DNA of 43,847 bases from a virus, in IMG/VR virus record IMGVR_UViG_3300045131_000787, positions 1 through 43,847 of that record; one strand, written 5' to 3'. The first letter of the stretch is position 1, and each line of letters begins with the position of its first letter. Positions 10,864 through 41,173 of this stretch are shown here, one piece after another. Both the position numbers and the translations under genes were made by a program. A model generated the notes under the pieces. That model searched no databases. It worked only from the letters and a program-made list of their open reading frames with translations, and was not told the DNA's origin.

Positions 10864-10888
10864 GTTATGGGTGCTACTGTCCTTCGAA

Positions 10889-11209
10889 AACAGGCACAAC
10901 AGGCACAAGGCAGGCACAAGAAAAAGGGTTATGCCTGTTTTTATATGTTGATAAATAAGGCTAGATTGGAAAAAACAGGCACAAGGCACAAGAAACGGGG
11001 AAAAAGATTTCTATAGATAATATAGACATAAGTATAGGGTCCTATATATATTAGAATCTTTTTTAGTAAATCTTATGCCTTATGCCTGTTTTTTCTGAAT
11101 GACCCTTTAGATTAGCCATATAAAAACAGGCACAACTATTTTTGTTATGCCTGGTTATGCCTGTTTTGGTAGAATACCCTTTGTTTAAGCCATAAAAAAA
11201 CAGGCATAA
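10889..11209. repeat. Cluster of inverted AACAGGCAYAA elements
   Basis: Full or near-full copies occur on the + strand at 10889-10899, 10898-10908, 10909-10919 (first bases GG), 10974-10984, 11125-11135 and 11199-11209, and on the - strand (TTATGCCTGTT form) at 10929-10939, 11080-11090, 11145-11155 (last two bases GT) and 11155-11165. Half copies follow the full ones at 10985-10992 and 11073-11079. The copies pair as hairpins: 10911-10937, 11127-11153 and the perfect 13-bp 11155-11167/11197-11209. A larger nested inverted repeat spans 10974-11090. Confidence 0.85.
11097..11209. repeat. Direct repeat of about 38 nt ending in the AACAGGCAYAA element
   Basis: Unit 1 (11097-11135) and unit 2 (11172-11209) share GAAT, CCCTTT, GCCATA, an A-run and the terminal AACAGGCA(C/T)AA in the same order. 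They start 75 nt apart. The repeat therefore includes flanking sequence as well as the short core. Confidence 0.7.
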
Positions 11210-11275
11210 GGTTTTTAGACCTAAAAAAAATACAGTCCCTTTTTAATAGGAATAGCCCCCGGGTGTTATTTTTGG

Positions 11276-15143: not shown

Positions 15144-15788
15144 ATGGGATTAGAAAATAGAGAGGCAGGGAATTTTATTACTATTTACGACGGCAAGTTT
15201 TCTCAAAGAGTTGAGAAAGGAGAAGAGGGTGCTGTTGAACGAGTAAACAAGCTCAAGAAAACTGTTTACGAAAAGTATCACGATAGCCTTACTGGCAAGC
15301 TCGTGAGTATCAAAGTGAAAGACGGAGAGTATGGGAAGCAGTGGGTGTTTGGTTTCCAAGATACTAAAGATGTTTATTTATTACAGTTACCATTTTCAAA
15401 TTCTTTCTCAAAGAACATTTTGAAAATGTTACCGAACGCTGACCTGACAAAGGAAATGCGATTGACCCCAAGCTCTAAAGTAGAAGCTGACGGAACTAAA
15501 AAGTATTCTATCTTTATCAATCAAGACGGACAGGCTTTGAAGCACGCTTACACAAAGGATAATCCAAATGGATTGCCTCCAATGACCCAAGTTACAGTGA
15601 AAGGTTCACTTGTATGGGATGATACTGACCAGATGATTTGGTTAGAGAAAATGGTGAACGATACTATTGTTCCAAAGTTAGGTGGTGCAGTCGCTCCAAC
15701 AGCAACCGCTCCAGTAGATAGTTTAGATAAGTTTGTTGGTGATTTAAACGCAGGAGTAGATATTAACCCAGAGGATATTCCTTTCTAG
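15144..15788 (+). CDS. Single-stranded DNA-binding protein (SSB-like)
   Basis: 214 residues. The central beta-rich part (about 45-165) fits an OB-fold: it opens with LTGKLVSIKVKDG and later shows MTQVTVKGSLVWDD. The C-terminus is an acidic linker ending in PEDIPF, the signature tip by which SSB proteins recruit partner enzymes. Position supports this: it heads the operon containing the primase-helicase. It would coat replication intermediates. The N-terminal 40 residues are charged and of unclear fold. The body does not match bacterial SSB closely, so it is probably a phage-type SSB. Confidence 0.65.
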   Translation: MGLENREAGNFITIYDGKFSQRVEKGEEGAVERVNKLKKTVYEKYHDSLTGKLVSIKVKDGEYGKQWVFGFQDTKDVYLLQLPFSNSFSKNILKMLPNADLTKEMRLTPSSKVEADGTKKYSIFINQDGQALKHAYTKDNPNGLPPMTQVTVKGSLVWDDTDQMIWLEKMVNDTIVPKLGGAVAPTATAPVDSLDKFVGDLNAGVDINPEDIPF

Positions 15789-15790
15789 TT

Positions 15791-16342
15791 ATGAGAACTT
15801 ACACGAACAATTGGTTTGAAATAACAGGCAGGGCGAACTTTGAAAAATATGTTTTACCCTTAAAAGAAATACCCGACCTCAATTTTTTAGAGGTTGGGTG
15901 TTACGAGGGGCAGACTTCAAACTGGCTATTGGATAATACAAACGCTGACTTAACTGTTATGGATACCTTTGCAGGTGGTCAAGACTTACCAGAAGAAGTT
16001 GATTTGCTCCAGAGGTTTAAGAATAATACCGAAGAACACAACGATAGAATATGTATTGAAGTAGGTAGGTCGCAAGAGAAACTAAGAGATGAAGCCCCAG
16101 AGAGTTATGACTTCATATACATTGATGGCTCACACTTAGCAGGCGATACCTTAGAAGACGCAGTCCTCGCTTTCCGATTATTGAAGAAAGGAGGTATAAT
16201 GATTTTTGACGATTACACTTGGGGAGTAGGAATGGGCTTCTATGATATTCCTAGAACTGGTATAGATGCTTTCCTCTTAGTCTTTGGTAATCAGTTGGCA
16301 GTGTTGGAAAAGAATTCTCAAGCAGTAATAAGGAAAATGTAA
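15791..16342 (+). CDS. SAM-dependent methyltransferase (Methyltransf_24-like)
   Basis: 183 residues, a compact class I methyltransferase. Motif I is FLEVGCYEGQTS (32-43); an acidic strand end follows in TVMDTF (55-60); IDGSH (111-115) and FDDYTWG (139-145) are characteristic of the Methyltransf_24/TylF-type group, often O-methyltransferases for sugars or small molecules. No target-recognition domain or DNA methylase motif IV (DPPY/NPPY) is visible, so DNA modification is unlikely. It begins 2 nt after the SSB gene. With the RmlB-like enzyme at 20147 and the double glycosyltransferase at 39419 it may belong to a sugar-decoration route; that link is inferred. Confidence 0.7.
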   Translation: MRTYTNNWFEITGRANFEKYVLPLKEIPDLNFLEVGCYEGQTSNWLLDNTNADLTVMDTFAGGQDLPEEVDLLQRFKNNTEEHNDRICIEVGRSQEKLRDEAPESYDFIYIDGSHLAGDTLEDAVLAFRLLKKGGIMIFDDYTWGVGMGFYDIPRTGIDAFLLVFGNQLAVLEKNSQAVIRKM

Positions 16343-16359
16343 AAGCACGCAAATGCACA

Positions 16360-16490
16360 AAATGCTAAAAACAAAAACAAATATAGGTAACAAAATGAAA
16401 ACCGTCAGAGATAACAAGGTTATTAGCATTTCCTTGATTACGACCTTTGGCGGTTTTCATTTTGTTACTTATAACCAAATAAAAATGCTA
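16360..16490 (+). promoter_or_regulatory. Predicted pseudoknot RNA leader of the primase-helicase gene
   Basis: Arms 16382-16406 and 16449-16473 pair over 25 bp. The two positions that are not Watson-Crick are G-U in the + strand RNA, so the helix is complete only there. Inside the 42-nt loop a CAAGG/CCTTG stem (16415-16419 and 16432-16436) presents TAGCATTT (16424-16431). That octamer is exactly complementary to AAATGCTA at 16483-16490, which ends on the A of the start codon, and to a second AAATGCTA at 16360-16367. The arrangement allows a pseudoknot that hides the start and a competing upstream pairing that frees it. Confidence 0.65.
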
Positions 16491-18871
16491 TGAAAAAAGA
16501 TACTACTCAAATGTTAGAATGCTTCCCTGACCACTGCTATAGATACTTGGACAGGACAGGAGCAAATAGAACTCCAGTATCTTCCGCAACACGAAGAGAT
16601 GACCTTAATGCGATTGGATATGACAGTTACTTTACACCAAATGGCTTTGCCAATTTCAAAGACAATCCTAGTGCAATAAAAGAAAACTGTACCTCGCTGA
16701 ATAGTTTCTTTGTGGATATAGACGGAAGAAAAGAGTGGAGTGAGATAGAGGGGATAATTAAAAGATTAGAACCGACTTTTGTATTGGAAACTTTTCACGG
16801 CTATCACTGCCACTGGCTCTTAGACGAAGCGATATATAAGAATGAAGTAACAGCGGAGGAGTGGGCATTAGCTATGGCTAGGTGGGAGAGATTGGAGCAA
16901 AACATAGTAGATAATCTAAAAGCCGACAACAACGCAAAAGATATACCAAGAATCCTAAGAGTACCGAACAGTTTCTATTGGGAGAAAGGTTGTGGAGAAC
17001 TATACAAGAAAGGAACGAAAGATATTTTTAAGATAACTGGGAAGTGGAAAAATTTAGCTTGCCGATACACTATGCAGACACTGGAGGAAGCTTTCCCACC
17101 GACCAAGAGAGAATTGAGCTTCATTGAAACTCCACTAGGAGAGAGGACAAAGAAATTTGCTGACGCTGAACGCAAAGACTTTTTCAATAGAGTGAACGCC
17201 GAGTACCCTCTGACCGAGCGAGATAGTTTTAATAAACTGATTAGTGCCGAGCCTGAAACGATACCTGCAGGAGCAGGGAGAAATAATGCCTTACTCGTTA
17301 CCGCTTCACTTATGAAGCAAGCAGGGTGGACTCAAACCCAAGCCCTAGAACACTTACAGAAAACTGGTTGGCACGGAATGGAGATTGAGCGTGGTGGTTG
17401 GAATGAGATACAGAACACAGTAAACAGTGCATTCTCTAAAGGCTACACTTACTCTTTCAAGAATGAGATTATCTCTCACAATATGACCCCAGACGAGCAG
17501 AGTAAAATCCAAGACGCCTTTGCCTCCGCCGTGAAGCAGAGAAAAGAGTTGGATAAGATTAGATTTGCTGACTATGAAAAGGAACTACTCTTACGCTTCC
17601 CTTATCTAAGACGAAACGAAATTGGAATACTCTATGATTATAGGAAAGGAGTTTATGTCCCAGTGAGCGACCTAGACCTAAGAAGTATGATACTCCGAAG
17701 CTTAGACGAGGATATGCTAGTAAACTATAGGACAACAAAGAACGTAAACGACAAAATCGCCTGTCTTTTATCTATCATCCCGAAGCTAAATATCACTGAA
17801 GACGACGGCAAGATTGTGAATGTAGTGAACGGCTTATTGAATATCTACACCAAAGAACTGTTACCGCACACACCGAACTTTGTGTCCTTGATACAATACC
17901 CTGTCGTTTATAATCCTGAAGCTAAGTGTCCGAACTGGGATAAATGTGTCGCTGATTGGATGAAAGGACCAGAACAAGAGGAGAAGACCAGATTAGTGAA
18001 ACAGTTTTGTGGCTACATTCTATCCTCCTCTATGCTTTATGACCGAGCCTTGTTTATGGTTGGAGACGGAGGAAACGGAAAGTCCACTTTCATTGATACT
18101 ATCTCTGGAGTGATTGGAGCAGACGCCACTTCCCATATTGACCTAGATGGATTGTATGGGCAGTTTGGAATGGCAGGACTGGTTGGCAAGCGATTGAATA
18201 TTATTGAGGAGGTTCGTGGAAACTATTACGAGAGCAACAAATTAAAGAAACTTATCTCTGGTGAAAGAGTTACCATTGATATGAAATACAAAGAACAGTT
18301 TACTTTTAAACCACAAGCTAAGTTCGTCTTTGCCGTGAATGAAATGCCTAGAGTTGATGATGTGTCCACCGCAACCGAACGCCGAATATGTGCTGTTACT
18401 TTCCTAAATAACTATAGAAAGAATCCGAATCCAAAGCTCCGAGCAAGCGTGGGAGGTCTAGGAGAAGAAGCTTCCGGAATTTTGAACTGGATGATTGAGG
18501 GAGCGATTGACCTAAAAGAAAAAGATAATTTTATTGTGACAGGAGAGCAGACTAGAATGTTGAATGAATACCGAGAGGAGAACTCATCTGTTGAAGGATT
18601 TATTAAAGAGTGTATTGTCCTTGACCCAGAACAAAGTATTGAAACCCCCGACCTCTACTCTGAATATAAGAAGTGGTGTGCTTCAGACGGCGGAAGAAAG
18701 ACCAAAGCGAAAATTACTTTCACCAAAGAGATGAAAGCTTACGGAGCTAAGGAGGACCGATTTACTTTTGAACCTAGAAGATTTGGTGACGCTGAAGCTA
18801 AGTTTGTTGGAATGAAATTGAATCCTCTATGGAAAAATCAGGGGACTAATAGTTGGGGAGACTTCAAATAA
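16490..18871 (+). CDS. Primase-polymerase/SF3 helicase fusion
   Basis: 793 residues. The N-terminus is an archaeo-eukaryotic-type primase of the RepB-primase kind: FFVDIDG (Asp76, Asp78), the His motif HGYHCHW (103-109) and RVPNSFYW (157-164). A PriCT-like helical segment follows near 250-320 (GRNNALLVTASL). The C-terminus is a D5-type SF3 helicase: Walker A GDGGNGKS (525-532), Walker B LNIIEE (569-574), sensor Asn in FAVNEMP (614-620) and Arg pair 631-632. It would unwind the origin and prime, and perhaps extend, new strands. With no DNA polymerase gene in the window, it either recruits the host polymerase or does more synthesis itself. Translation probably depends on the leader structure upstream. 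Confidence 0.88.
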   Translation: MKKDTTQMLECFPDHCYRYLDRTGANRTPVSSATRRDDLNAIGYDSYFTPNGFANFKDNPSAIKENCTSLNSFFVDIDGRKEWSEIEGIIKRLEPTFVLETFHGYHCHWLLDEAIYKNEVTAEEWALAMARWERLEQNIVDNLKADNNAKDIPRILRVPNSFYWEKGCGELYKKGTKDIFKITGKWKNLACRYTMQTLEEAFPPTKRELSFIETPLGERTKKFADAERKDFFNRVNAEYPLTERDSFNKLISAEPETIPAGAGRNNALLVTASLMKQAGWTQTQALEHLQKTGWHGMEIERGGWNEIQNTVNSAFSKGYTYSFKNEIISHNMTPDEQSKIQDAFASAVKQRKELDKIRFADYEKELLLRFPYLRRNEIGILYDYRKGVYVPVSDLDLRSMILRSLDEDMLVNYRTTKNVNDKIACLLSIIPKLNITEDDGKIVNVVNGLLNIYTKELLPHTPNFVSLIQYPVVYNPEAKCPNWDKCVADWMKGPEQEEKTRLVKQFCGYILSSSMLYDRALFMVGDGGNGKSTFIDTISGVIGADATSHIDLDGLYGQFGMAGLVGKRLNIIEEVRGNYYESNKLKKLISGERVTIDMKYKEQFTFKPQAKFVFAVNEMPRVDDVSTATERRICAVTFLNNYRKNPNPKLRASVGGLGEEASGILNWMIEGAIDLKEKDNFIVTGEQTRMLNEYREENSSVEGFIKECIVLDPEQSIETPDLYSEYKKWCASDGGRKTKAKITFTKEMKAYGAKEDRFTFEPRRFGDAEAKFVGMKLNPLWKNQGTNSWGDFK

Positions 18872-18872
18872 T

Positions 18873-20150
18873 ATGATACCACCATTATACGAACATCAGA
18901 AGAAAATAATTAAAGAGAACAAACTGAAGTGTGGCTTGTTTCTCGGAACTGGTGCTTCCAAAACCAGAACGGCTTTGGAAATGGCGGAGGGTGAGGTATT
19001 GGTTATTTGTCCAAAGCAACAGAGAGAAGACGAAACTTGGCAGAGAGAAAATACTAAATGGGGAACGAATAAAAATCTAACAGTAATCAGTAAAGAAGAT
19101 TTGCGAAAGAGCTGGGATAAGTTGCCTCACTACGACACTGTAATTATAGATGAGTGTCACAATAATCTAGGAGTGCTTCCAATGATGATACAGAGAAAGA
19201 AAATACAGTATCCGAAATGCTCCCAGATATTTGAAGCGACCCAGAAGTTTCTTACGAAACATAACCCAAAGCGATTGTATCTCCTCTCCGCTACCCCAAT
19301 TCCAAAGCCAATGAGTATGTGGGCGATAGGAGTTTTGTTTGGTCAGAAGTGGGATTTCTGGCAGTTCAGACAGACTTACTATAACGAAATCAGGATAGGA
19401 GGAGTGCGTAGAATCTGGATGCCAAAGAAAGACGAAGCCACCAAGCAAAGACTAGCCGATTTAGTCCATAAGTTTGGTTATACTGGAGGGCTTACAGATT
19501 TCTTTGATGTCCCAGAACAGACCCATAAAGTAGTTGAAATTGAGCCTAGTAGCGAGCAAAAGAAGGCAATGACCGAAATGACCTTTGCCGAGGCAGACCC
19601 CCTTGTAAGGCGTGCCAGACTCCGCACGATTGAAAATGGAGTGCTATATGGGAAGAAGATTGAGACTTTGGATGGTAAAACGGACAAAATGACTAATCAG
19701 ACTAAGATTTTCAAGTCACACAAGATAGATTACATCCTAGAACGAGCCCTAGAGTTCCCCAAATTACTTATCTTTGCTAACTATACCGCCCAGATTGAAG
19801 AGATTGCAAAGGCTCTAAGAGAAGAGGGATACAATGTCTCCACTCTGACAGGAGCAACAAAGGACCGAAGCTTTATCCGAACAGTAAACGAAAGCCCCGA
19901 GCCTCATATCATTATCGCCCAGAGTTCAATATCATCCGGCTACGAATTGCCTAGCTTCCCGTGTGTAATCTATGCAAGTAAGAGTTGGAGGTATGTGGAT
20001 TACGAGCAAAGCTTAGGTCGTGTGCTTCGTTCAAATCATTTAAAAAAGAATTTATATATCCACCTTGTAGTCAAAGGCTGTGATATGGATTGTCACAAAG
20101 CCATAATGAGCGGAGTAGACTTCCAAGAAAAATTAACATTAAATATATGA
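18873..20150 (+). CDS. SF2 (SNF2-like) DNA helicase
   Basis: 425 residues. Motif I LGTGASKT (24-31), motif II DECH (93-96), motif III SATP (139-142) and a C-terminal motif VI-like QSLGRVLRS near residue 385 give a complete two-lobe SF2 helicase or translocase. Phage relatives act in replication fork remodelling or recombination. It starts in an AATAATATG context 1 nt after the primase-helicase. Its TGA stop overlaps the next start as ATGA, one of the two TGA stops identified in the window. Confidence 0.88.
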   Translation: MIPPLYEHQKKIIKENKLKCGLFLGTGASKTRTALEMAEGEVLVICPKQQREDETWQRENTKWGTNKNLTVISKEDLRKSWDKLPHYDTVIIDECHNNLGVLPMMIQRKKIQYPKCSQIFEATQKFLTKHNPKRLYLLSATPIPKPMSMWAIGVLFGQKWDFWQFRQTYYNEIRIGGVRRIWMPKKDEATKQRLADLVHKFGYTGGLTDFFDVPEQTHKVVEIEPSSEQKKAMTEMTFAEADPLVRRARLRTIENGVLYGKKIETLDGKTDKMTNQTKIFKSHKIDYILERALEFPKLLIFANYTAQIEEIAKALREEGYNVSTLTGATKDRSFIRTVNESPEPHIIIAQSSISSGYELPSFPCVIYASKSWRYVDYEQSLGRVLRSNHLKKNLYIHLVVKGCDMDCHKAIMSGVDFQEKLTLNI

Positions 20151-21148
20151 AGATTTTATTAACAGGAGGGGCAGGGTTCGTCGGTTCGCATATTCTTTCG
20201 CATTTTCTAAAGAATACCGACCACGAAATAGTGTGTGTCTGTTCGTGGAAGCACAGAGGTGCACCATTTAGAATTTTAAACGATGCAAATTATCAAGAGA
20301 ATAAGGAAAGAGTAAAAATTATTACTCACGATTTGATTTCTCCTCTCACTGCAGATGTGAAAGAGAAAATAGGATTCCCAGATATTATCATCAATGTAGC
20401 TTCCGAGTCGCACGTTGATAGGTCAATCACCGACCCAGTTCCATTCGTCAAAAATAATGTGGACCTGATGCTCACAATGTTGGAGTTCGCAAGAGAAGTA
20501 AAACCTAAAATGTTTCTTCAGTTCTCCACCGATGAGGTATATGGGCAAGCTCCACTCGGAGTGGACCATAAAGAATGGTCACCGATTATTCCTAGCAATC
20601 CGTATTCAGCCTCAAAAGCCGCTCAAGAAGCTATAGCAATTTCTTATTGGAGGACCTACAAGATTCCGGTTATCATTACAAACACTATGAATGTGTTTGG
20701 TGAACGCCAAGACAAAGAGAAGTTTATCCAGTTGGTAATTGAAAAAGTAAAGAACGAAGAAAAGGTAACAATTCACGGATACCCAGATGGTAAGACAGCC
20801 GGTTCACGATTCTATATTCACGCTCGGAATGTCGCTGATGCAATTCTACATATCATCACTAATGTGACCCCTACAATGTATCCTGAAGTTGACCGACCAG
20901 AACGATTTAATGTAGTAGGAGAAAAAGAAGTAGATAATTTAACCTTAGCTAATCTGATTGCTTCCTATGTTGGTAAACCCTTGAAGTATGAAATGGTGGA
21001 CTTCCATAGTAGTCGCCCGGGGCACGATTGTCGTTATTCCCTAGATGGTGAGAAGTTAGCAAGTATCGGTTGGAAGCCAAAGGTTTCGTTTGAGGAGTCG
21101 TTAAAACGAACAGTTGACTTTAGTTTAAAAGAGATGTCTGACAAGTAA
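20147..21148 (+). CDS. RmlB-like NDP-sugar 4,6-dehydratase/epimerase
   Basis: 333 residues, an extended short-chain dehydrogenase. TGGAGFVGSH (6-15) binds NAD; FSTDEVYG carries the Asp-Glu pair typical of dTDP-glucose 4,6-dehydratases; the active-site Tyr and Lys are in NPYSASKAA. ESHVDRSI and NVFGERQ are further RmlB-type landmarks. It would act on a nucleotide sugar in the cytosol, making a 4-keto-6-deoxy or epimerised sugar. It overlaps the helicase stop by 4 nt, so it is translated with replication genes although its role is metabolic. The exact substrate cannot be read from sequence. Confidence 0.85.
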   Translation: MKILLTGGAGFVGSHILSHFLKNTDHEIVCVCSWKHRGAPFRILNDANYQENKERVKIITHDLISPLTADVKEKIGFPDIIINVASESHVDRSITDPVPFVKNNVDLMLTMLEFAREVKPKMFLQFSTDEVYGQAPLGVDHKEWSPIIPSNPYSASKAAQEAIAISYWRTYKIPVIITNTMNVFGERQDKEKFIQLVIEKVKNEEKVTIHGYPDGKTAGSRFYIHARNVADAILHIITNVTPTMYPEVDRPERFNVVGEKEVDNLTLANLIASYVGKPLKYEMVDFHSSRPGHDCRYSLDGEKLASIGWKPKVSFEESLKRTVDFSLKEMSDK

Positions 21149-38441: not shown

Positions 38442-39422
38442 TTATGGAAATAACTCATAGAGTTTTCCTTTTGTTAAATCGCCAAAGTTTCCTTCTTGAG
38501 GAAAGATGGCATAAGCTTTTTGAAACTTCTTACACGAACTTCTGGACACTGGACCCCAATTCTCGACCTCGGCTATATTGGTAGGGAAGTATCCTAACCA
38601 CTTAAAGCATTGCTGTGCGGATATAATTGAACCATCGAAATGAGGTTTATCTGATTGTTCTCCAACACTAAATCGGAAAGCCATAAGATAAGAAGCCAGG
38701 TAACAACGATGGTTAAAATACTCACGACTGATTAACCTTTGACCATTCATTGAATGACCAATACCCCACGATTCATCACAAACAAGATATTCTTGTCCGT
38801 TATAAGTGACTGGTTCAAGAGCGATGATGGAGTGACCAGAAGTCATTGGTTGTTCACTAATGATAGGAATATCTTTCCATTCATATTGATTGTAATGGAA
38901 CCAGAGCATCACTCCTTTACCAGTATTCTGAAGAGTTGATGCAACGGTATCAAAATCCAAAGGAACAGAAATTCTTTTTATCTCTATCATCTTCGCTAAG
39001 TCTTTAGCATAAGGAGGCATTGGAACTGCCATTGCGTCTTGGTTATTCAAACCATCTCCTGGCATAAATTGCTCAAAGATATTTCCTATTTTAGGGAAGA
39101 CTTGGTAAATATCAACAGAGTTACAACCTGGTATGTCTGGGTTAGAACGCAATTGATAAGGGAAACAGGTGGAGAAATCTACCCACACCCCGTACTTCTG
39201 ATAGAACCAAATGGAAAGCTCTTTGGCATAAGTGAAGACAACACATCGACCGCTCACACCCTGTGAACGAATCGGATATCTTAAAAAGTTTTTTGGTTCT
39301 TTTGTAGGAAAGACTGGTGGAGCAACAGCCGTAACAACATCACTCTGTTTGTAGTTTTTACTTTTCTGCTCGTCAGTCTGATTATCATAACAACCATTGT
39401 AAATTATTTCTGGTTTTTTCAT
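38442..39422 (-). CDS. Papain-like cysteine peptidase with PG-binding domain, probable endolysin
   Basis: 326 residues. The peptidase core has Gln54 and Cys60 in SQGVSGRC, His197 in SGHSII, and DESWG (216-220) where papains have NSWG, so the third catalytic residue is replaced by an acidic one. The C-terminal 65 residues (HFDGSIISAQQCFKWLGYFP, then KKFQKAYAIF, then GDLTKGKLYELF) look like a peptidoglycan-binding repeat domain. There is no signal peptide, so export would need the adjacent holin. It could cut peptide cross-links of peptidoglycan. A virion-associated protease is the alternative. It overlaps the glycosyltransferase stop as ATGA. Confidence 0.6.
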   Translation of the reverse strand: MKKPEIIYNGCYDNQTDEQKSKNYKQSDVVTAVAPPVFPTKEPKNFLRYPIRSQGVSGRCVVFTYAKELSIWFYQKYGVWVDFSTCFPYQLRSNPDIPGCNSVDIYQVFPKIGNIFEQFMPGDGLNNQDAMAVPMPPYAKDLAKMIEIKRISVPLDFDTVASTLQNTGKGVMLWFHYNQYEWKDIPIISEQPMTSGHSIIALEPVTYNGQEYLVCDESWGIGHSMNGQRLISREYFNHRCYLASYLMAFRFSVGEQSDKPHFDGSIISAQQCFKWLGYFPTNIAEVENWGPVSRSSCKKFQKAYAIFPQEGNFGDLTKGKLYELFP

Positions 39423-41173
39423 AATTCTAATAATTTTTTAGCTAATAAAGCACGGTCTTCCTCGACGTGAGACCAGCCAGTTTTATAGACTTCATCCATC
39501 TTTCGGTCTGGAGTTTTAGTCCAGTGATAATGATTGACGATAGAATTTTCTGCTCGTACAGCAATACCCAGCTTATTCATCTTTGCCCAGAGTAAATTAT
39601 CACAGCCACAGTGCCAGAAGTCGGTATCAAATATCTCTCCTATCTTTCCTACAATATCTCTACGAATCATAAAATGCTCATTGATATTCCCAGCGTCAGC
39701 AGATAAAGTTCCAGTGTTGAAAGCGACGTAACCTTTCTCTCCAACTTTTAAAGCTTCATTGATTGATTCCGGAGTGAACTCGGTATCGTTTGAAGCAAAC
39801 ACAATCCAGTCGCCAGTAGACTCTTCATAACCCTGTTTCAGAAGTTTAGGTACGCCAATTCTATTCTCAAAACTGTCAGGCTTCACAATTATTTCAATTC
39901 TATCTTGTGGGTAATTGAGAGCTTTAATTGAGTTCAAACACCTTATTAAGCCTTCCTCTCTACCGAGGGTAGGTATTACGAAGCTCAATTTAGGCTTTAT
40001 AGGCTCTGGTTTTTTTGTTGAATCGTAGAAAGAACCGTCAGCAATATACTTGGGGTTAGTAGGATTATAGGCTAGAGCTTTCTTCCAGTGTTCATAACTG
40101 TGTAATTTATTACCTATCCACCAGTAAGAAATGTAGAGGAGTTCGTGTGGAACATTCTCGTAGTATGGTTGGTGATTAGAATAAAATGGAATCTGGGTAA
40201 TAGACAAAGCCGCTTCAGAATAAACAATTACTTGAGCGTGCATATTTTTACTAAAATAGTATTCAGCTAATCGCATCAAAGGTTCTCGGCGAGCTTCTTT
40301 CTCAACAGATTTTATCCACCAAAGGAGCATTTCATCTGTCTTACCTAATGCTCTATACGCATCTCCAACATATAACATTGACTGGGCGGCTTCAGTTACC
40401 CAGCGACCCATTGAAATATGATTTAAAAACTCTTTTATTGCAGAGCGGTATCTACCTAGATAAAGCATTTCCCTCGCAAAATAATGAGAGTTACGGTCAT
40501 TGCTAGGATTGTTATAGCAATCAATCGCCAAGCCTTTAAGGTATCCTGTTCTGTTTGTTTTTTCATTTTGGTAATGTTCCAATTTAATTATGTCCTCTCC
40601 AAGATATTTCGTCTTGGCGTTTCCTGTTAAAATCTCGTGAATAATTCCAACCCATCTTAGAATTTTTCTATTATAAAATTTGCAGTGACGAAATTTAATG
40701 ACCGGATTACCAAGTTTATCGTGAGAAAACACAAACTCATATTCCAGTTGTTCAGCACCATTAGTAATAGCTTCATCTAGTTTATCAATATCAAATTTTG
40801 TAAATACCTCATCACAGTCAGGGGTAGCTATAATATCGCAGTCTGGAAAATCAGCTATATAGTTACGAGCTGATGCAAAATCAAAAAGAGACTCACCGGC
40901 ATTTACCACTGGAGCCTCGCCTTCTACTATGAATTTAGCATTGATTTTATCTGCTAATTCTTTATCTATGTTTATTCTAAATTTGTCACCGACAGCTTCT
41001 ACTTTGCACCCGAGAGATTTAGCTACTTCAATCGTGTTGTCAGTTGACCCAGTGTCTAAAACCCAAATGTCACCACCTCTTTCTTGGAACTCTTTAAGAG
41101 AACCAATCATTCTTGGTAGAGTTAATGCTTCATTTTTTGCGATAAGTGCAACACTAAATTTTGGTTTATTCAT
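39419..41173 (-). CDS. Double GT2 glycosyltransferase with TPR-like middle
   Basis: 584 residues, three parts. Residues 5-185 are a GT2 domain (VALIAKNEALTL, then VLDTGSTDNT, with a DxD motif in TPDCDE, 119-121). Residues about 225-375 are helical repeats like TPR (YFAREMLYLGRYRSAIKEFL, then YVGDAYRALGKTDEML). Residues 395-560 are a second GT2-type domain (SFVIPTLGREEGL, then GDWIVFASNDTEF). The two domains could add different sugars in sequence, using a nucleotide sugar in the cytosol, with the TPR part holding a protein substrate. It lies inside the lysis/fibre region. Collagen-like fibres are plausible acceptors; host surface modification is the alternative. Confidence 0.8.
   Translation of the reverse strand: MNKPKFSVALIAKNEALTLPRMIGSLKEFQERGGDIWVLDTGSTDNTIEVAKSLGCKVEAVGDKFRINIDKELADKINAKFIVEGEAPVVNAGESLFDFASARNYIADFPDCDIIATPDCDEVFTKFDIDKLDEAITNGAEQLEYEFVFSHDKLGNPVIKFRHCKFYNRKILRWVGIIHEILTGNAKTKYLGEDIIKLEHYQNEKTNRTGYLKGLAIDCYNNPSNDRNSHYFAREMLYLGRYRSAIKEFLNHISMGRWVTEAAQSMLYVGDAYRALGKTDEMLLWWIKSVEKEARREPLMRLAEYYFSKNMHAQVIVYSEAALSITQIPFYSNHQPYYENVPHELLYISYWWIGNKLHSYEHWKKALAYNPTNPKYIADGSFYDSTKKPEPIKPKLSFVIPTLGREEGLIRCLNSIKALNYPQDRIEIIVKPDSFENRIGVPKLLKQGYEESTGDWIVFASNDTEFTPESINEALKVGEKGYVAFNTGTLSADAGNINEHFMIRRDIVGKIGEIFDTDFWHCGCDNLLWAKMNKLGIAVRAENSIVNHYHWTKTPDRKMDEVYKTGWSHVEEDRALLAKKLLEL

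Follow-up and report, generated by a model that had tools for sequence, protein, structure and literature searches.

We identified a long hairpin in the leader of a phage primase-helicase gene, and comparison with relatives indicates that it is a selected and conserved cis-encoded RNA of the coding strand that is tied to the primase gene. The comparisons also point to a copy of the loop target upstream of the hairpin, and not to the primase start, as the universal partner of the loop. On balance we lean towards a model in which the hairpin tip is antisense to the start of a leader ORF that is coupled to the primase, so that the element would act as a mainly intermolecular, dosage-dependent feedback brake. 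The element lies in a 43.8-kb virus record (the window, i.e., the whole stretch of 43,847 nucleotides that was analysed) with a GC content of 39% and an A-rich context at gene starts. An SD-like 4-mer was found at just 3 of the 41 gene starts in the window, which together with the A-rich context bears out the previous suggestion that this phage does not use SD sites. Judging solely from these start contexts, the host would be Bacteroidota-like. The features of the element and the genes around it are as follows (positions in the window):

15144..15788, + strand: probable SSB-like gene of the same operon with C-terminal ...PEDIPF; acidic tail in the window sequence and in relatives
15791..16342, + strand: methyltransferase-like gene 5' of the element (Pfam Methyltransf_24)
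16353..16493, + strand: upstream ORF, putatively translated, 46 aa (MHKMLKTKTNIGNKMKTVRDNKVISISLITTFGGFHFVTYNQIKML), reading through the hairpin and stopping at a TGA (16491-16493) that overlaps the primase ATG (ATGA)
16360..16368, + strand: upstream target seqA AAATGCTAA, codons 3-6 of the upstream ORF; 9-nt complement to the hairpin loop
16382..16410, + strand: 5' arm of the main stem, 29 pairs, from the fold; 16/29 pairs changed on both sides in relatives
16416..16419, + strand: 5' side of the apical clamp, AAGG, pairing with CCTT in the fold; GG/CC invariant in the close clade
16423..16431, + strand: antisense loop TTAGCATTT, complementary to seqA and, over 8 nt, also to the primase start copy
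16432..16435, + strand: 3' side of the apical clamp, CCTT, from the fold and relatives
16445..16473, + strand: 3' arm of the main stem, from the fold and changes in relatives
16483..16490, + strand: second target copy seqC AAATGCTA; its final base is the A of the primase ATG
16490..18871, + strand: D5/P4-type primase-helicase, 793 aa (Pfam DUF5906, D5_N, Pox_D5; PHROG DNA primase), the regulated gene in the proposed model

The hairpin boundaries were taken from minimum-energy folds, in which the main stem consists of 29 contiguous pairs (16382-16410 with 16445-16473), 26 of them Watson-Crick and three G-U. The stem itself had been recognized in an earlier note on this DNA, but as a 25-bp stem with two odd pairs, both G-U, and these details did not hold. 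The folding energy of the window hairpin is -46.9 kcal/mol compared to -21.4 ± 3.3 kcal/mol in shuffled sequences (z = -7.8), and the hairpin is the strongest short-range inverted repeat of the whole window. The loop octamer TAGCATTT (16424-16431) has two exact complements (AAATGCTA), one at 16360-16367 and one at 16483-16490, confirming both copies that had been described, upstream and ending on the start-codon A. The match with the upstream copy extends over 9 nt (AAATGCTAA/TTAGCATTT) and is longer than the match with the start copy. As the octamer occurs three times in total across the 43.8 kb and about 2.4 occurrences are expected by chance anywhere, the signal lies in the clustering of the copies and not in their number. 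The possibility that the octamer is a regulon-wide target was rejected, the genome containing no further copies.

The stop of the methyltransferase-like gene (16342) sits 10 nt before the upstream ORF. In the window this gene separates the SSB-like gene, for which a Pfam search gave no match, from the hairpin, and a similar gene is present in L002, L012, and L030 among others. In other relatives the element is directly preceded by the SSB-like gene, with no methyltransferase-like gene between them.

Scans of viral contigs identified 33 uncultivated relatives with primases that are 55-91% identical, and one partial match at 52-53%. A search of the genome collection (bacterial genomes) returned no relatives and no prophage relatives, and the primase matches among GenBank phages reach merely 24-29% over part of the protein, which is too distant for alignment of the leaders. 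A long hairpin is present in the primase leader of nearly all 33 relatives; no convincing hairpin was found in L040. Where a gene has been inserted before the primase (L026, L030, L031, L033, L047, L048), the hairpin precedes the inserted gene. The leaders of the distant primase loci L007-L010 were read and contain no comparable hairpin, and the RNA model gave no match there either. This covariance model, built from eight members, recovered eight further members (L013, L026, L032, L034, L039, L047, L049, and L051). Wherever it scores, there is one site per genome record, located at the primase leader, and the primase (+) strand scores higher at every site found. Nine loci (L006, L030, L037, L038, L042, L043, L045, L046, and L050) are below the model threshold and were recognized by position and the loop rule only. 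The loci are related and not phylogenetically independent, and the p-values given below overstate their independence.

The stem covaries among relatives, the check which the earlier note had called for. In a close clade of eight, 17 of the 33 stem pairs show changes on both sides and 93.2% of stem cells are paired, compared to 47-55% with slid partners, and none of 500 shuffles reached any of five stem covariation measures. Mismatches in 26 non-redundant stems, scored regardless of strand, comprise 72 G-T and 13 A-C (p = 5e-11), and therefore the functional RNA is taken to be the coding strand. Part of the G-T excess could come from a bias towards C-to-T mutations on the coding strand, but such a bias could not maintain the stems. 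Together with the strand preference of the covariance model, this asymmetry supports the previous observation that the stem is complete on the coding-strand RNA. In Rfam searches, the window element hit nothing but eukaryotic microRNA and lncRNA models, at chance level, and the relatives yielded a single unrelated tRNA; no Rfam family covers the element, in line with the proposal that it may be a new RNA class. Two other identities were rejected, a target-site duplication of a mobile element, since the relatives share its position and orientation and have homologous stems, and an intrinsic terminator, since a consistent U-run is lacking downstream of the stem.

In all 26 non-redundant loci, the loop region is exactly complementary over at least 7 nt (mean 8.6) to a site within about 45 nt upstream of the stem. 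When loops were swapped between loci, an upstream complement of at least 7 nt was found in 121 of 650 combinations (19%), part of which is due to relatives with the same code. The duplex energy of the hairpin top with the upstream region is -16.9 kcal/mol when both come from one locus and -11.8 kcal/mol with swapped tops (p = 3e-8, 26 non-redundant loci). As MAFFT places the upstream target one column off, loop/target pairs were counted on a hand-set register. Changes in the loop are matched by changes in its target, and the predicted linkage between the two is borne out across relatives. The resulting target codes are lineage-specific, each with an 8-12 nt complement in the loop:

AAATGCTAA: window, L002
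AAATGTAAC: L001, L027, L012, L025, L029
AATGTATGTA: L028
AATGTAGAA or AAATGTAGA: L032, L034, L039
AATGCAAC: L013, L026
CTTCGACAA: L043
ATAACCCGCAAA: L038
AAACATGCTAC: L050

A short ORF that is usually open through the hairpin, and which the earlier note had missed, overlaps the upstream target with its first codons. A complement of at least 7 nt that includes an AUG is present in 19 of the 26 loci (12% with swapped loops), and a second helix beside the loop covers the start codon of the upstream ORF or its neighbourhood in L006, L037, L041, L042, L046, and L030/L033. Of the frames with an upstream ATG, 20 of 27 are open through the hairpin, compared to 9 of 51 frames without one (Fisher p = 1.5e-6). 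In thirteen loci the ORF stop lies within -17 to +14 nt of the primase ATG; examples are the window, L001, L027, and L038 (+1), L041 (-2), L006 (+4), L046 (+5), and L029 (+7). A leader ORF that overlaps the start of the replication gene is thus found in the window and many relatives, but not in L013, L032, L034, L037, L039, and L043. The ORF stops well before the primase in L013 (-45), L037 (-36), and L043 (-151), and in L032, L034, and L039 an ATG-TAG alone is present at the target, with no through-running ORF. In bacteria and archaea, re-initiation after termination at ATGA overlaps is an established process, for which Bacteroidetes do not rely on an SD (PMC6728339). In-frame alternative starts of the window ORF are located at 16362 and 16395. 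There is no conservation of the amino acid sequence of the ORF; between the window and L002, for instance, the reading frame shifts within the hairpin. A conserved leader peptide was rejected for this reason, the frame shifting between close relatives, and it therefore seems that ribosome passage, and not the peptide, matters. The target itself holds an out-of-frame ATG-TAA or ATG-TAG mini-ORF in many relatives (L001, L012, L025, L027, L029); at 16362-16368 the window has ATGCTAA in place of this start-stop mini-ORF.

In the model that we favour, the leader ORF ends on or near the primase start codon, and ribosomes terminating there would re-initiate on the primase. The clamped loop, in some lineages together with the second stretch beside it, would pair with the ORF's own start region, which would block ribosome entry at the leader ORF and silence the coupled primase. 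The pairing partners would most likely be on separate RNAs (two mRNAs, or one mRNA plus a processed hairpin), and repression would rise with transcript and genome number. We infer translation of the ORF, coupling, repression over activation, pairing in trans, and dosage feedback. Pairing between molecules is favoured because a simple estimate of lengths indicates that the linker of 0-31 nt between target and stem would not extend to the loop in about 18 of the 26 loci. This argument is rough, as internal loops bend stems and stem bases can melt. In the other 8 of the 26 loci the linker could span the stem according to this estimate, and there pairing within one molecule could occur. Single-molecule predictions leave both pairing partners largely unpaired, although this holds less for seqA in some lineages.

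The earlier note had proposed that the loop masks the primase start codon in a cis pseudoknot, in which the loop would pair, within one RNA, either with the primase start, giving the OFF state, or with the upstream copy, giving the ON state. A complement at the primase start does exist in a subset of loci. The loop matches the start exactly over 8 nt in the window and L002, and over 7-8 nt in L001, L027, L028, L029, L006, and L039; in total, a start copy of at least 7 nt is found in 9 of the 26 loci, window included, compared to 82 of 650 swapped combinations (12.6%). In step with the loop and the upstream copy, the start copy also differs between window/L002 (AAATGCTA) and L001/L027 (AAATGTA); L028 and L006 show further such changes. 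Across the family, however, pairing with the own primase start is no better than that of swapped tops (-10.3 vs -10.0 kcal/mol, p = 0.58, 26 loci), and masking of the start codon is thus not supported as the conserved feature; most lineages have lost the start copy, whereas the upstream copy was never lost. A pseudoknot in one molecule is moreover sterically doubtful, as the linkers are too short for a full stem in most loci, and in the window just 9 nt separate the stem from the start copy while the stem measures roughly 80-110 Å. We consider the cis switch unlikely as an explanation of the element. It is plausible, because of the co-changes of the start copy, that the primase start serves as a second, optional target in the neighbourhood of the window, and the loop could thereby also cover the primase start in the window and some of its relatives.

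By analogy, the element would work like phage P4 CI, P1 C4, and plasmid R1 CopA-tap-repA, and it appears to be a member of none of these systems. The leader of the P4 alpha primase operon carries seqA, CI, and seqC, and CI acts by premature transcription termination (PMC4825925). The likeness to P4 CI lies in the antisense loop between upstream and downstream target copies in the leader of a D5/P4-type primase operon, with loop and targets setting specificity. A trait of C4-type RNAs, complementarity of the loop to a region of translation start within the operon's own transcript, is likewise present. In contrast to P4 CI, with its termination mechanism and C4 fold, the element here is one long hairpin with no C4 match, its upstream site is an ORF start, its downstream copy is optional, and lysogeny genes were not found. 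The Rfam C4 model (RF01695) gave no match in window positions 16200-16700 up to E = 1, nor at gathering in the window and nine relatives. As a control, Rfam finds C4 (74.9 bits) and isrK on the P4 record. In the P4 sequence, a C4 loop (CAGCCTCC) is the complement of GGAGGCTG, the SD region of the following ORF, and TTCTCAC has complementary GTGAGAA copies on both sides.

In P1 C4, which carries a' and b' stretches, one loop occludes the ribosome-binding site and the other gives specificity, and the RNA regulates a leader ORF (PMC5320573). The bipartite pairing in L006, L037, L041, and L046 resembles that of P1/P7 C4, but the latter, about 77 nt long after processing and folded into three stem-loops, acts on icd/ant, whereas here the antisense sequence lies inside the leader ORF and the primase would be controlled. 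CopA of R1 blocks the leader ORF tap, to which repA is translationally coupled (PMC5717011). Shared with R1 are the leader ORF overlapping the start of the replication gene and the antisense sequence directed at the leader ORF; CopA is encoded on the opposite strand from its own promoter, whereas the antisense sequence here is on the same strand within the leader and the protein is a primase-helicase. In IncI/IncB-type repY-repZ control, a hairpin loop pairs with the leader and a leader peptide controls the replication gene (references in PMC10724649). The IncI/IncB-type pseudoknot activates and adjoins the rep start, whereas the partner conserved here lies upstream, where the loop mostly could not reach it in cis. 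In IsrK-orf45-anrP of Salmonella Gifsy-1, a leader ORF with an AUGA overlap is coupled to a phage gene, alternative pairing occurs with RNA of the same transcript, and the nucleotide sequence is conserved better than the amino acid sequence (PMC4825925). The putatively coupled AUGA-type leader ORF, the alternative pairing, and the stronger conservation of nucleotides than of amino acids are similar here, but IsrK activates in trans from its own promoter, and no sequence or structural homology to IsrK was found with Rfam.

The resemblance to P4 and P1 brings up an immunity function, in which a processed, stable small RNA like P4 CI or P1 C4 would shut down the primase operon of a superinfecting or resident relative and the divergence of loop and target would give specificity. 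The layout of target, antisense loop, and target before a D5/P4-type primase is indeed as in P4, as checked on the P4 record, and loops and targets diverge between relatives in matched steps. Lysogeny is unsupported, however, because no tyrosine integrase or serine recombinase was found in 8 records of 42-46 kb (classed as possibly incomplete) and the genome collection yielded no prophage relatives. We regard immunity as quite unlikely to be the function of the element. Near-perfect stems of 27-47 pairs are of the type cut by RNase III, and the double-stranded stem could serve as a processing or stability site between operon genes, with the loop complementarity being secondary. The stems are of this length and quality and show strong covariation, but such a site needs no loop complementary to the upstream region, yet all 26 loci have one, which makes this reading very improbable. 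An element acting at the DNA level, such as a cruciform, a replication origin, or a substrate of neighbouring endonuclease VII/HNH genes, would fit the location in a replication operon and the endonuclease VII-type genes between hairpin and primase in L026, L030, L031, L033, and L048, but is very unlikely in view of the strong strand asymmetry of wobble pairs, the constant position upstream of the primase in the same orientation, and the lack of such an endonuclease gene there in most relatives.

Returning to the antisense brake on the leader ORF, we tentatively suggest that the element may represent a new class of same-strand, self-encoded antisense RNA, in which a hairpin within a translated ORF silences the start of that ORF on sibling transcripts. 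This would give SD-less phages a protein-free, dosage-sensitive control of the primase with lineage-specific loop/target codes; such a class is possible rather than probable. If true, an undescribed RNA family would set primase output in widespread uncultivated phages that lack SD sites, and the logic of antisense RNA acting on a leader ORF, as in plasmid copy control and P4/P1, would extend to phages with no SD to mask. The matched loop/target codes would then predict which phages cross-regulate each other in a co-infected cell.

A second strong hairpin follows the first one before the primase in L042, L043, L045, and L049, its loop having no clear complement nearby. The genes between hairpin and primase in L026 (2478-3017), L030 (2367-3014), L033 (2506-2980), and also L031 and L048 are of the endonuclease VII/HNH type, and the ends of these inserts overlap the start of the primase. 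In L026, the insert opens with codons (MKKNATPFLN) that resemble the N-terminus of the L013 primase. In L030 the endonuclease-like ORF starts at the leader ATG and runs through the hairpin. Similarly, an HNH-like ORF in L047 (2029-2535), for which Pfam gave no significant match, runs from the leader ATG in frame through the hairpin, with the primase about 830 nt downstream. Elsewhere in the window, clustered inverted copies of AAAACAGGCACAA / TTATGCCTGTTTT are located in an intergenic region between divergent gene blocks (10887-11211), which may be an origin or an operator array. The phage genome further carries a sugar-nucleotide epimerase/dehydratase gene (GDP_Man_Dehyd/Epimerase; window 20090-21148) and a family 2 glycosyltransferase gene (window 39419-41173).
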